From: Vulcanimicrobiota bacterium
GTDB taxonomy: Bacteria; Vulcanimicrobiota; Vulcanimicrobiia; Vulcanimicrobiales; Vulcanimicrobiaceae
Reading direction: 5' to 3'
Length of the DNA: 35,688 nucleotides
Assembly: GCA_027452165.1 (NCBI GenBank)
Contig: DAIDGX010000006.1
Coordinates: 1-35,688 of the forward strand
Made by a program: the position numbers and the translations under genes. Each line of letters opens with the position of its first letter. Positions within the stretch are counted from its first letter, which is position 1. Positions 20,931-26,383 of the stretch are shown piece by piece. The notes beneath the pieces are model-generated. The model worked only from the letters and a program-made list of their open reading frames with translations, did not search any database and was not told the DNA's origin.

Positions 20931-21266
20931 CTAGGCGAGCAGACGCAAAGTGAGCGGATAGCTATACCGCTCGCCCTGGGCCGTCTTCACTGCGGCCACG
21001 ATGCAAAAGATGACATTCGCAAGCCACACGGCGGGGAGCAAGAACGCCCCGATGACGAGCACGGTTAGGACGCCCGAGATCACCGACGCTATGACGATGC
21101 TCAGTTGAAAGTTGAGCGCCTCTTTGGCCTCCTGGGCGAGCCATGGTTTCGAATCGCGCGAGACGAGCCACACGATGAGTGGAACGAGGAAGCTGAAGAA
21201 CATTCCGCTGAGGTGGGTGAGCACGGCGACGTTTTTGTCGTCTTGTGAGGCGGGGCTCCCGATCAT
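20931..21266 (-). CDS. DUF4870 (Tic20-like) small membrane protein
   Basis: 111 aa from ATG 21266, with GGAG about eight bases upstream. The longer open frame back to 21863 runs inside the permease gene and is not coding there. The N-terminus DDKNVAVLTHLSGMFFSFLVPLIVWL and the following PWLAQEAKEALNFQLS are the classical DUF4870 pattern, followed by two more hydrophobic segments (IVIASVISGVLTVLVIGAFL and VWLANVIFCIVAAVKTAQGE). The protein is about the usual family length with three to four membrane segments. Its ATG overlaps the TGA of the upstream permease gene (ATGA), so translation is probably coupled. The function of DUF4870 is not established. Confidence 0.9.
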   Translation of the reverse strand: MIGSPASQDDKNVAVLTHLSGMFFSFLVPLIVWLVSRDSKPWLAQEAKEALNFQLSIVIASVISGVLTVLVIGAFLLPAVWLANVIFCIVAAVKTAQGERYSYPLTLRLLA

Positions 21267-22588
21267 AAGCGCTTCTCCTGTGCCACCTTGGTACGACGGG
21301 CGATCGCAAATCCCCAGTATGCCGGAAGGCCCAAAAGCATGATGCCGAGTCCAATCATCGTATCGCGTGGCGCGCCGATCGCGACGTCGGCGACGATGCC
21401 CCACGCGATCGCGAGAAAGAGCCCCGTACTCCATGGATGGAGGGGTATGCGAAAGGCGACCGGCCTGTTCGCGTCGCGCTTGCGAAAGATAAAGAGCGCG
21501 ATCGCCGCCAGTCCGAAAAAGACGAAATCGACGCTCTCGACGTAGTTGAGAATCTGGTTGTAGCTGCCGCTCAGCGCCACCACCGCCGCCGTGATACCTT
21601 GCGCCACAATCGCTACGAGGGGAACGCGCGTGCGCGGATGTACGTAGCCGAGTGCGCGAAAGAAGATGCCGTCCTCGGCCATTTGGTGATAGACGCGAGG
21701 CGAGACGAGAATCTGCTGCGAGAGCGTGCTCATCGTGGCGATCGCGACGAGCGCCGTGACCACGCCCGCGCCGACGGGGCCAAGCGTAAGCGCGGCGAGA
21801 TCGCTTGCGGGTGTCTGCGTATGGGCGAGCGCCGCGGCGCCAAGTCCATGCAGAAACGACCAATTGGCGAGCAGATAGAGCGCGACGACGATCGCTACGC
21901 CGAGCGTGATGCCGCGCGGTAGCGTGCGTGTCGGATCCCGGAGTTCGCCGTTGATAAAACTCGACGTGTGCCAGCCGTCATAGGCGAAGAGCACGGCGAC
22001 AAGCGCGAGCCCGGCGCCGGCGAGCAGGTGTGCGTTCGAAAGCGGCGCGAGCGTAGGTGCCGCATGGATGGCGAGATGGCTATGCGCGGCGATCGCGCAT
22101 GCGGCCACGACGACGATCATCGCGACGTTGAGCAGGATGAACGCGTGCTGCGTGAACGCGCCCTGTCGCAGGCCGAAGCAGTTGATGAGCGTGAAGGCCG
22201 CGATGATGAGCGCGCCGAGTACGCCGGTTGCGAGTGGCACGTGAAGTGCGGGAACCACGTAGATCGCGAAGGTGACCGCACCGGCTGCCATGCCGCCGCT
22301 CTGCGCTACGAGCAGCAGCGTCCAGCCATAAACGAAGGCAACGCTCGGGTGGAACGCATCGCGAAGGTAGGCATAGAGCCCGCCGTTCTCTGGGCGCCGT
22401 GCCGCGAGCTCGGCAAAAAGCGTTGCGCCGAGGAGTGCGATGATGCCGCCCGCGATCCAGGCAGCGGTTGCGAGCACGGGCGCGTGCAGATAGCCGATCA
22501 CGAGCGACGGGTTTAGAAAGATGCCCGAGCCGAGGATCCCGCCCATGACGATCAACACCGCATCGAACGTGCCGAGACGTCGTACCAT
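21263..22588 (-). CDS. APC-superfamily amino-acid permease (copy 1)
   Basis: 441 aa, about twelve membrane segments. The APC signature is at the N-terminus: FDAVLIVMGGILGSGIFLNP (the G-S-G-I-F substrate-binding bend in TM1), then FAELAARRPENGGLYAYLRD and GWTLLLVAQSGG. This resembles the LAT/SLC7-type branch of bacterial amino-acid exchangers or importers. The substrate cannot be read from sequence. It is one of three clear paralogues in the window (others at 25034 and 27871). It is sixth in a seven-gene minus-strand run, 53 bases after the stop of the HD-GYP regulator, and overlaps the DUF4870 gene by four bases. The ribosome site is weak (GAG). ATG 22588 aligns with the paralogues' starts. 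Confidence 0.93.
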   Translation of the reverse strand: MVRRLGTFDAVLIVMGGILGSGIFLNPSLVIGYLHAPVLATAAWIAGGIIALLGATLFAELAARRPENGGLYAYLRDAFHPSVAFVYGWTLLLVAQSGGMAAGAVTFAIYVVPALHVPLATGVLGALIIAAFTLINCFGLRQGAFTQHAFILLNVAMIVVVAACAIAAHSHLAIHAAPTLAPLSNAHLLAGAGLALVAVLFAYDGWHTSSFINGELRDPTRTLPRGITLGVAIVVALYLLANWSFLHGLGAAALAHTQTPASDLAALTLGPVGAGVVTALVAIATMSTLSQQILVSPRVYHQMAEDGIFFRALGYVHPRTRVPLVAIVAQGITAAVVALSGSYNQILNYVESVDFVFFGLAAIALFIFRKRDANRPVAFRIPLHPWSTGLFLAIAWGIVADVAIGAPRDTMIGLGIMLLGLPAYWGFAIARRTKVAQEKRL

Positions 22589-23662: not shown

Positions 23663-23803
23663 TTATGCGTCGGTGAACTGTTCGCGTGCTCCCGGTAAAG
23701 TTGTCGTGAACCGGGAGCGTTCGTGCGCCCGCTCGGTGTATCCGATGGCGGCCCATGCCGCAAGGATGGCGAGAAATCCCGTAAGGGCGATCGTTACGTC
23801 CAT
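23663..23803 (-). CDS. 46-aa single-pass membrane microprotein following the ammonium channel gene
   Basis: ATG 23803 is preceded, with a 10-base spacing, by a good GGAGG and overlaps the end of the ammonium channel gene by 10 bases in another frame; the stop is TAA. The sequence has one strong hydrophobic segment at residues 3-21 (VTIALTGFLAILAAWAAIG) followed by a charged, basic tail (YTERAHERSR) and a polar end, predicting a type with N-out/C-in or tail-in orientation. I do not recognise the family. Its place is where glnK is often found beside amtB, but it bears no resemblance to a PII protein. A small accessory subunit of the channel is an inference. The ribosome site, overlap and clean TM segment support it being real. 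Confidence 0.6.
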   Translation of the reverse strand: MDVTIALTGFLAILAAWAAIGYTERAHERSRFTTTLPGAREQFTDA

Positions 23804-24987
23804 TGATAGGCAGCCTCCGCATGCTGGGTAAGATCGAGACCGAGATGCTCCTGATCGGGGGTCACGCGCAAGGGCATGATGAGCATCACGAACTTTAGAA
23901 CTGCGTACGTCATCGCCGCGGTATAGGCCCACACCACGGCGACCGCGGCGCATTGGACGAGGGTTTGGTGCGCGACCGCAACATGGAGCGCGAAGACGCC
24001 GGTGAGCAGCGCGCCGATCGTGCCGCCGATGCCGTGCACGGGAAAGACATCGAGCGCGTCGTCGATATGCATACGAGCACGCAGCTGTACGGCCGCATAA
24101 CAGCCGATCGCGGCGATCGCGCCGATGACGATCGACGCGGCGGGGGTAACATACCCCGCCGCGGGTGTTATCGCGACGAGACCGGCCACGCAGCCGGCGG
24201 CAGCGCCGACGGCGCTGGGCATACCGGTGCGCGACCACCCAAGCGTCATCCATGCGAGCGCACCCATTGCCGGTGCTACGCTCGTGTTGATGAACGCGAG
24301 CGCCGCGACGCCGTTTGCGGCAAGTGCGCTCCCGGCGTTGAAGCCGAACCAGCCGAACCAACAGAGCGCGGTGCCGAGGAGCATCATCGTGCGGTCGTGC
24401 GGTTCGTGGGGACCGCTGCGTAAGCGTGGTCCGAGCATCCACGCGCAGATCAGGGCAGCAACGCCCGACGAGATGTGCACGACCGTGCCCCCGGCGAAGT
24501 CGAGCGCGCCGAGATTTGCAAGCCAGCCGCCATGTCCCCAAACCCAATGCGCGATCGGGTCGTACACGACCGTGGACCAGAGCACGGTAAAGAGCAAAAC
24601 CGCGGCGAACCGCTTGCGCTCCGCGAACGCGCCGGTGATCAACGCGGGCGTTATCGCCGCGAACATCATCTGGAAGAGTGCGAATGCGAGATGGGGCACC
24701 GTCGGCGCATAGGCAGGGTTCGGATGCAGGCCCACGTGTGTGAACCCCAACCACGCGAAGGTACCGATGACGTGGTGCCAATCGGGGCCAAACGCAAGCG
24801 TGTAGCCCCACAGCACCCACTGCACCGCGATGGCGCAGAGCGCGAGAAAGCTGTGCATCAACGTCGAGAGCACGTTCTTTCGATGCACCAGGCCGGCGTA
24901 GAAGAAGCCGAGCGCCGGCGTCATCAACATGACGAGAGCCGCGCTCGTCAGAACCCAGGCGGTATCGCCGGCACTGATGCGTCCCAT
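23794..24987 (-). CDS. amt: Ammonium transporter (Amt/Rh family)
   Basis: 397 aa with eleven predicted membrane segments. Family landmarks: FYAGLVHRKN near residue 30, phenylalanine gate region QMMFAAITPALITGAFAER (F109), D163 in DFAGGTVVH, and the twin pore histidines H171 and H318 (VFPVHGIGG). Amt proteins conduct ammonium/ammonia across the inner membrane for nitrogen assimilation and are usually blocked by GlnK. No glnK is adjacent; instead a 46-aa membrane protein overlaps the 3' end. The gene lies 46 bases downstream of an APC permease gene and belongs to the Lrp-led run. The C-terminal tail is short (LGLDLTQHAEAAYQWT). The start ATG 24987 has a poor ribosome site, but no better in-frame start exists upstream. 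Confidence 0.95.
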   Translation of the reverse strand: MGRISAGDTAWVLTSAALVMLMTPALGFFYAGLVHRKNVLSTLMHSFLALCAIAVQWVLWGYTLAFGPDWHHVIGTFAWLGFTHVGLHPNPAYAPTVPHLAFALFQMMFAAITPALITGAFAERKRFAAVLLFTVLWSTVVYDPIAHWVWGHGGWLANLGALDFAGGTVVHISSGVAALICAWMLGPRLRSGPHEPHDRTMMLLGTALCWFGWFGFNAGSALAANGVAALAFINTSVAPAMGALAWMTLGWSRTGMPSAVGAAAGCVAGLVAITPAAGYVTPAASIVIGAIAAIGCYAAVQLRARMHIDDALDVFPVHGIGGTIGALLTGVFALHVAVAHQTLVQCAAVAVVWAYTAAMTYAVLKFVMLIMPLRVTPDQEHLGLDLTQHAEAAYQWT

Positions 24988-25033: not shown

Positions 25034-26383
25034 TTAAAGCGTGCGCTCGGCCTTACGTCGGAAGGCGTAATAGACCGGAATTCCCGTGAGCAGCACGACG
25101 AAGCCGATCAGGGTCGCGGAGGTCGATTTCACGAGGACATCGAGGACGATTGCCCACGCGACGAGCAAGAACGTTATCGTGCTCCACGGATGTAGCGGCA
25201 TCGTGAAGAAGGGTTTCGGCGCTCCGATGAGGGCGTCGCGCCTGCGAAAAACCACGAGCGCGAGCGCGGCAAAACCGAAGAAGATATAGTCGATGCTCGT
25301 GACCCAATTGAGGATGAGATCGTACTTGCCGGAGAGCGCGATCAGCATGGCGGCGACGCCTTGCACGGCGATCGCGATGACCGGCACGTGCGTGCGCGGG
25401 TCGATCCGCGCAAGTGCTTTGAAGAACGTGCCGTCGGCGGCCATTTGATAGTACACGCGTGGTGCGGTGAGAATCTGGTTGGTGATGAATCCGAGCGTGG
25501 AGAGCGCGACGATCGTTGCCATGATGCGTCCGCCGATTGGGCCGAGCACCGCGCGCACGACGTCGGAGGCCGGTGTGTCGGTGCGGGCGAGGCCGTCTTG
25601 TCCGAGTGCGATCAAGCAGACCAGATTGACCGCGAGATAGAGAACCACGACGCCGAGCACGCCGTAGATCATGCCGCGCGCGAGCGTTTTATGCGGCTCG
25701 CGCAGCTCGGCCGACATGAAGCTTGAGGTCTGCCAGCCGCTGTAGGCGAACATCACCGGTACGAGCGCAAGTCCCATCGCGACCACGGGGTTGAAGGGCG
25801 GCGCTGGTGCGTTTGAGAGCGGGTGCGCGAGTGCACTCCCAACGGCGAAGAGGCCGATCGCCACGACGCCTGCGATCGCGATGAGTTTGGCGATCATAAA
25901 GGTGTTCTGGGCGTTGGTGCCCTGTCGAACGCCCAAGCAGTTGACGAGCGTGAAGAGTCCGATCACGCCGACGGCAATCGCCGTGGCGACGGGATGCGAG
26001 AGCTGGATGCCCGTGATCGCCGGAAGATAGAAGGCGAACGTGACCGCCGATGCGGCTGCGCCGCCACCTTGCGAGATCAGCAAGAGCGTCCACCCATAGC
26101 AGAAGGCGACGGCCGGATGGAAGGCATCGCGCAGATATGCATACACGCCGCCATCGTTGGGGCGCCGTGCCGCAAGTTCGGCGAAGATGCCCGCGCCGAT
26201 GAGCGCGATCGCGCCCCCGAGTGACCACGCGAGCATCACAAGCGGTCCCGTGTGGACCATGCGCGCGACACGCGAAGGGTTGACGAAGATGCCCGAACCG
26301 ATGATACCGCCCATCACGATGAGCGAGGCGTCGCGCGCGCCGAGGCGGCGCAGCAGCTGGGGCCGATCAGATGGCTCGGTCAT
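25034..26383 (-). CDS. APC-superfamily amino-acid permease (copy 2)
   Basis: 449 aa, about twelve membrane segments. TM1 signature LIVMGGIIGSGIFVNP, then FAELAARRPNDGGVYAYLRD, GWTLLLISQGGG and a conserved MSAELREPHKTLARGM loop. Closely similar along its whole length to the copy at 21263 and to that at 27871. Probable proton- or substrate-coupled amino-acid uptake or exchange at the inner membrane; substrate not assignable. ATG 26383 lies 10 bases beyond the stop of the Lrp/AsnC gene, so the two are almost certainly co-transcribed, and control of this permease by its Lrp neighbour is a reasonable inference. The ammonium channel gene follows after 46 bases. Confidence 0.94.
   Translation of the reverse strand: MTEPSDRPQLLRRLGARDASLIVMGGIIGSGIFVNPSRVARMVHTGPLVMLAWSLGGAIALIGAGIFAELAARRPNDGGVYAYLRDAFHPAVAFCYGWTLLLISQGGGAAASAVTFAFYLPAITGIQLSHPVATAIAVGVIGLFTLVNCLGVRQGTNAQNTFMIAKLIAIAGVVAIGLFAVGSALAHPLSNAPAPPFNPVVAMGLALVPVMFAYSGWQTSSFMSAELREPHKTLARGMIYGVLGVVVLYLAVNLVCLIALGQDGLARTDTPASDVVRAVLGPIGGRIMATIVALSTLGFITNQILTAPRVYYQMAADGTFFKALARIDPRTHVPVIAIAVQGVAAMLIALSGKYDLILNWVTSIDYIFFGFAALALVVFRRRDALIGAPKPFFTMPLHPWSTITFLLVAWAIVLDVLVKSTSATLIGFVVLLTGIPVYYAFRRKAERTL

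Follow-up and report, generated by a model that had tools for sequence, protein, structure and literature searches.

Channels of the Amt/Mep/Rh type are textbook material, and PII is regarded as the usual partner of those found in bacteria; the amt-linked regulator normally met with is GlnK (a PII protein, PF00543), which is soluble and about 110 aa long. A rather different class of transporter-binding protein is represented by KdpF, a small membrane protein consisting of a single helix. AcrZ, MgtS, MgtR and MgtU are likewise small membrane modulators, each binding a transporter and changing its activity, specificity or stability (PMC10710835). For ammonium transport itself the closest described case is that of sP36 of Methanosarcina mazei, a protein of 61 aa that acts on the ammonium transporter AmtB1; it is a cytoplasmic protein lacking a transmembrane helix, which relocates to the membrane after an ammonium upshift (PMC10714827). 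The literature searched yielded no bacterial Amt with an integral-membrane accessory subunit.

The gene discussed here encodes a microprotein of 46 aa and lies in a stretch of 35,688 nucleotides, referred to throughout as the window. It shares with sP36 the property of being a small protein found at an ammonium transporter in organisms without the classical GlnD-GlnK switch, but the description of sP36 sets the two apart, since the microprotein is a predicted single-helix membrane protein of hosts that lack GlnK. With GlnK it shares a gene slot, directly 3' of amt, which GlnK occupies in sister groups of Amts; the fold, however, is another one, the two proteins have no similarity, and GlnK is missing from the microprotein's hosts. 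It resembles AcrZ, MgtS, MgtR, MgtU and KdpF in size (about 28-50 aa) and in having one transmembrane helix, while differing from them in that its putative partner is an Amt/Mep/Rh channel and in showing no sequence similarity to them in searches of Pfam, NCBIfam and the PDB. Like other small single-pass modulators, it stays below about 60 aa, has a single transmembrane helix and is genetically linked, in a conserved manner, to one transporter; we consider it probable that it is a translated, single-pass membrane protein that serves the Amt next to it as an accessory subunit.

The locus and the microprotein family

The first-pass annotation had described an ORF of 46 aa with a GGAGG and an ATG overlapping amt by 10 nt, all of which was found again in the sequence (Table 1); the overlap of the amt stop with the microprotein start is exactly 10 nt, with both genes on the same strand, and the translation reads MDVTIALTGFLAILAAWAAIGYTERAHERSRFTTTLPGAREQFTDA. 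The single transmembrane segment was borne out as well, there being one hydrophobic stretch, which AlphaFold2 models as one helix spanning residues 3-33 (block pLDDT 93 and 95 for residues 1-20; mean 75.8). The basic character ascribed to the tail did not hold up: close to the membrane the tail is weakly basic, with a charge of about +1 across its first 12 residues, but taken as a whole it is neutral (4 R, 3 E and 1 D). Nor is it conserved, and a basic tail was accordingly discarded as a functional feature.

Table 1 Features of the microprotein locus and their coordinates in the window.
Feature	Position	Strand	Details and evidence
46-aa amt-linked microprotein ORF	23663..23803	minus	ATG 23803, stop TAA; family alignments, frame-specific synonymous excess
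GGAGG ribosome-binding site	23814..23818	minus	10 nt 5' of microprotein ATG, within amt coding sequence
amt, ammonium channel, putative partner gene, 397 aa	23794..24987	minus	PF00909 E 8e-119, TIGR00836 3.1e-130, tree placement
Microprotein conserved core, residues 1-22, predicted transmembrane helix	23738..23803	minus	family motif M-D...A...F10......W17
Microprotein hydrophilic tail, poorly conserved	23663..23737	minus	ends in Ala like most members; overlaps genus-conserved DNA element

The Amt of the window retains the residues conserved in its clade together with the C-terminal motif GLD..QH.E.AY, and so looks like a working channel; two more Amts in the same genome (L002 and L003, on contigs C15 and C22; 49% identical) have no microprotein. 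The gene 3' of the microprotein, on the same strand, encodes an HD-GYP response regulator (PF00072 and PF13487). The amt region lies between two APC-type amino-acid permeases encoded on the same strand, at 21263-22588 and 25034-26383, and at another locus (L008) an APC-like permease lies directly 3' of the microprotein.

Members of the family follow the consensus M[E/D]hhhAhhhFhhLhhxWhhLPx.., with a variable tail usually ending in Ala. Columns F10 and W17 are nearly invariant and are conserved across two phyla; the window's protein carries M1, D2, F10 and W17, and its Amt falls inside the clade of microprotein-linked Amts described below. In most members LP or AP comes shortly after the Trp; AIG takes its place in the window's genus and in L007/L008. 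Among 64 curated members, length is 26-54 aa in 63 (the exception, L004, having a frame of 76 aa), mean peak hydropathy over 17 residues is 2.66, and a Shine-Dalgarno-like site lies within 20 nt 5' of the start in 54. Core-only versions of 26 aa occur (L227-L230), as do tandem duplicates (L196, L242 and L245). A strong positive-inside charge bias was looked for in the same 64 members and not found, the net charge of the C-terminal flank being positive in 32, zero in 16 and negative in 16, which amounts to a weak positive-inside signal. Of 85 members, 54 end in Ala (22 of these in Ala-Ala), whereas Ala makes up 17% of the tails and 12% of the final residues of long ORFs; the corresponding p of 1e-21 is overstated, since the members are related, while the preference holds in 47 of 75 distinct last-four-residue endings. 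Our guess would be that this common C-terminal Ala is degron-like, as might suit a short-lived regulator and not a permanent structural subunit.

Scanning the window's ORF against Pfam and NCBIfam gave no match, while the same scan of 23 members (FixQ, LapA and other small families being considered) gave scattered matches of single members at E 0.016 or worse. A search of the PDB with the family profile found no significant relative, the best match being to PetM (E 0.053, not significant, and involving helix residues only), which as subunit VII forms a peripheral helix of cytochrome b6f, an unrelated complex. That the microprotein is not a PII protein, as had been proposed, agrees with these searches; identity with PII/GlnK was rejected because there is no PF00543 match and because 46 aa compares with about 110 aa. 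As judged by sequence comparison, then, the microprotein belongs to a hitherto unnamed family covered by no Pfam, NCBIfam or PDB entry, homology within which rests on some 22 residues of hydrophobic sequence.

Where close relatives are compared, substitutions distinguish the core from the tail. The window and its congener L004 (which keeps the frame, has a GTG start and reaches its 76 aa by running on into the next gene) differ over 23 codons at 12 third, 7 first and 3 second positions; pN/pS is 0.38 in the microprotein frame, the lowest of the six, the other five giving 0.76 to 2.6. For this pair dN/dS in the core is 0.18 and pN/pS in the tail 0.69. In further close pairs the core dN/dS is 0 (L007-L008) or mostly 0.04-0.5, two pairs from a single genus reaching 0.6-0.8; substitution in the tail ranges up to neutral. 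On these substitution ratios the helix is taken to be under purifying selection and the tail not. A chance ORF was considered and is ruled out by the conservation. In a second congener (L005/G002) the helix has been deleted, the deletion beginning just behind the amt stop, from which it follows that the microprotein is not essential.

The tail of the ORF is overlapped by a DNA element (GTTGACCGCAACTTTAC...GATAAGG in the congeners, AACTTTAC..ATAA(G/T); 23663-23720) that precedes the HD-GYP gene and is kept within the genus (window, L004 and L005) even where the microprotein is deleted; this is probably where the promoter of the HD-GYP gene lies. The tail also contains a perfect 9-bp inverted repeat (GCTCCCGGT..ACCGGGAGC, 23688-23718, minus strand) with a 13-nt loop and without a T-run.

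Linkage to amt and the glnK position

The genomes surveyed for linkage were mostly metagenome assemblies. Within the window's class, reading of the DNA behind orthologous amt genes revealed small ORFs of like kind, and a profile of 11 such sequences (A1) matched members outside its building set, most of them beside or near amt. A further profile (A3), built mostly from the window's class, was searched against 158 whole genomes of a different class, Chloroflexia, and gave 53 matches at E<=0.01. An Amt gene (58-66% identity) lies within 340 bp of 38 of these, on the same strand in all 38 cases; 37 of them are 25-300 bp downstream and one is upstream (a match adjoining an Amt fragment, L169, was left out of the 38). 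Reading downstream of the remaining Chloroflexia Amts added members in 17 more genomes, and in 400 evenly drawn Chloroflexota genomes an Amt lies within 1.5 kb at 25 of the 28 best loci. There is no circularity in the profile leading back to amt when whole genomes are searched. A downstream scan, with a hydrophobicity filter, of 78 Amts mostly from other phyla yielded only two Chloroflexota members and two AT-rich chance ORFs; L084 and L087 are Chloroflexota loci with the microprotein.

Linkage survives a change of gene order, the microprotein lying upstream of amt in L070, L168 and L213, and at L064-L067 the two genes are 0.8-3.9 kb apart. Since the small gene may be upstream of amt, duplicated, or only 26 aa long (L228), the helix would appear to be its working part. 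At one locus, L069 (6426-6768), amt has collapsed by an internal deletion that joins residues about 4-25 to 354-394, the microprotein ORF is still present 3' of the wrecked gene, and its conserved Trp (W17) is now Cys. There are also extra copies far from amt (L271-L274, in genomes G172, G138, G173 and G141), which imply that Amt may not be the sole partner; a second partner gene shared by these copies was looked for, with no consistent answer. One of them (L272) lies upstream of an ArsR-like regulator and another (L271) beside a P-type ATPase-like gene. A small ORF after amt with an excess of synonymous change, which the first-pass annotation had suggested seeking in related genomes, is conserved in two phyla and far beyond the 10-nt overlap; conservation confined to that overlap, which would have spoken against the microprotein, is not what was found.

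Of 115 Amts placed in a tree, 62 are linked to the microprotein, and all of these fall into one clade of 79 (SH 99), which contains none of the 24 Amts adjacent to glnK, and the microprotein label requires 8 changes as against 38.5 in shuffles. In a 64-row maximum-likelihood tree the split defining the microprotein clade has support of 100/99 and is kept in 200 of 200 bootstrap trees; sister rows with glnK are L256, L086, L092, L144 and L091. In G170, G209, G242 and G247-G264 a PII gene starts about 55-111 bp 3' of amt on the same strand. The position of glnK in the sister Amts is the position of the microprotein in its own clade, so that the original remark that the ORF sits where glnK commonly does can be put more sharply: in related Amts, glnK occupies exactly that slot. 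The simplest history consistent with the trees would be a single gain at the base of the clade followed by several losses, of which the tree has about 7 to 8; losses as frequent as this, including the helix deletion in a congener, mark the microprotein as dispensable.

PII genes in the host genomes

PF00543 was detected in 13 of 14 control genomes, and in the window's genome there was no candidate. Among 98 relatives in the window's class (a search from which the microprotein-carrying g9 genomes G129-G134 were left out) it was found in 8, none of which is shown here to carry the microprotein. Those PIIs of the window's class that were checked (L268, L269 and L270) adjoin DabA, an inorganic carbon transporter. 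In the 158 Chloroflexia genomes PII is present in 3 of 53 microprotein bearers versus 48 of 105 others (Fisher p 7e-8) or, within the set having an Amt of >=50%, in 3 of 53 versus 17 of 29 (p 2e-7), figures which, the trait being nearly that of one clade, describe co-distribution and not independent or repeated events of replacement. GlnK-type PII occurs in none of the 53 bearers: the PIIs of the exceptional bearers are tandem NifI-type genes adjoining NifH (G137, G225) or lie beside the bicarbonate transporter SbtA (G171), and these genomes were on that account rejected as counter-examples. In 12 Chloroflexia genomes there are Amts of the microprotein clade with neither PII nor microprotein, so the microprotein is not an obligate substitute for GlnK.

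Possible roles of the microprotein

In the mechanism that we favour, the microprotein would be made from the amt mRNA by way of a strong ribosome-binding site of its own, located at the amt stop or shortly behind it, and would insert with its acidic N-terminus outside and its C-terminus inside (weakly suggested, the charge bias being weak). The helix would pack against the Amt trimer by way of the face that carries the conserved Phe and Trp, and in lineages without GlnK to plug the channel it may tune the activity or stability of Amt. Translation, contact with Amt, topology and modulation are inferred from sequence, and the putative effect may be inhibition, activation or stabilisation. The suggestion of an accessory or regulatory subunit made at the outset has at any rate fared well in those parts that can be checked, the protein being no PII, conserved after amt, in the glnK slot, and found in hosts without GlnK.

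The alternative that comes nearest to this, and in part overlaps it, is that the microprotein does no more than stabilise Amt or help to assemble it, in the manner of KdpF or AcrZ and without any sensing, and that the anti-correlation with GlnK is a matter of lineage history. We give this somewhat less than an even chance. The core-only versions leave little room for a sensory domain, the tails diverge freely, and PII-less Amts exist that do without the microprotein; on the other hand, the exchange of slots with glnK and the complete lack of co-occurrence in 53 bearers suggest some link to the control of Amt, and the frequent C-terminal Ala may suggest turnover. It is unlikely, in our view, that the main partner is another membrane protein and that linkage to amt reflects only shared nitrogen regulation: the unlinked copies and the looser spacing in L064-L067 would fit such an arrangement, but the loci that were read showed no other neighbour in common, Amt is the direct neighbour in about three quarters of matches, and the copy beside the wrecked amt has lost W17.

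Small size and a single helix also recall the hydrophobic toxins of type I toxin-antitoxin systems, or membrane-stress peptides, which could be next to amt by chance, and tandem duplication would be in keeping with this. The gene has, however, been inherited vertically with one Amt clade and is always on the same strand, and since a mobile toxin is not expected to track a single transporter clade, such an origin seems very improbable. Least probable of all is that the peptide has no function, its translation being mainly a by-product, or a means of coupling translation or of protecting the mRNA at the 3' end of amt; the window's ORF does overlap both amt and the downstream DNA element, and the ORF is easily lost, but against this stand the synonymous-site excess in the correct frame, the conservation of the Phe and Trp across two phyla, and the presence of dedicated Shine-Dalgarno sites, which vary in their distance and occur even where the small gene lies upstream of amt.

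To return to the accessory-subunit reading, the best explanation is that such a subunit took over the glnK slot in lineages lacking PII. A more elaborate version, which is conceivable although we hold it to be doubtful, is that in Chloroflexota and in the phylum of the window a whole lineage of Amts gave up the GlnK plug, and that the microprotein is a regulator that binds the trimer within the bilayer and is turned over, by way of its C-terminal Ala, according to nitrogen status. What the locus offers is a concrete and conserved gene family that is absent from the curated family libraries, which miss it because it is so short. With the microprotein in the glnK slot, and only in lineages without GlnK, the control of ammonium uptake without PII becomes directly testable; if the protein is indeed a regulator, it would represent a non-PII way of gating ammonium uptake.
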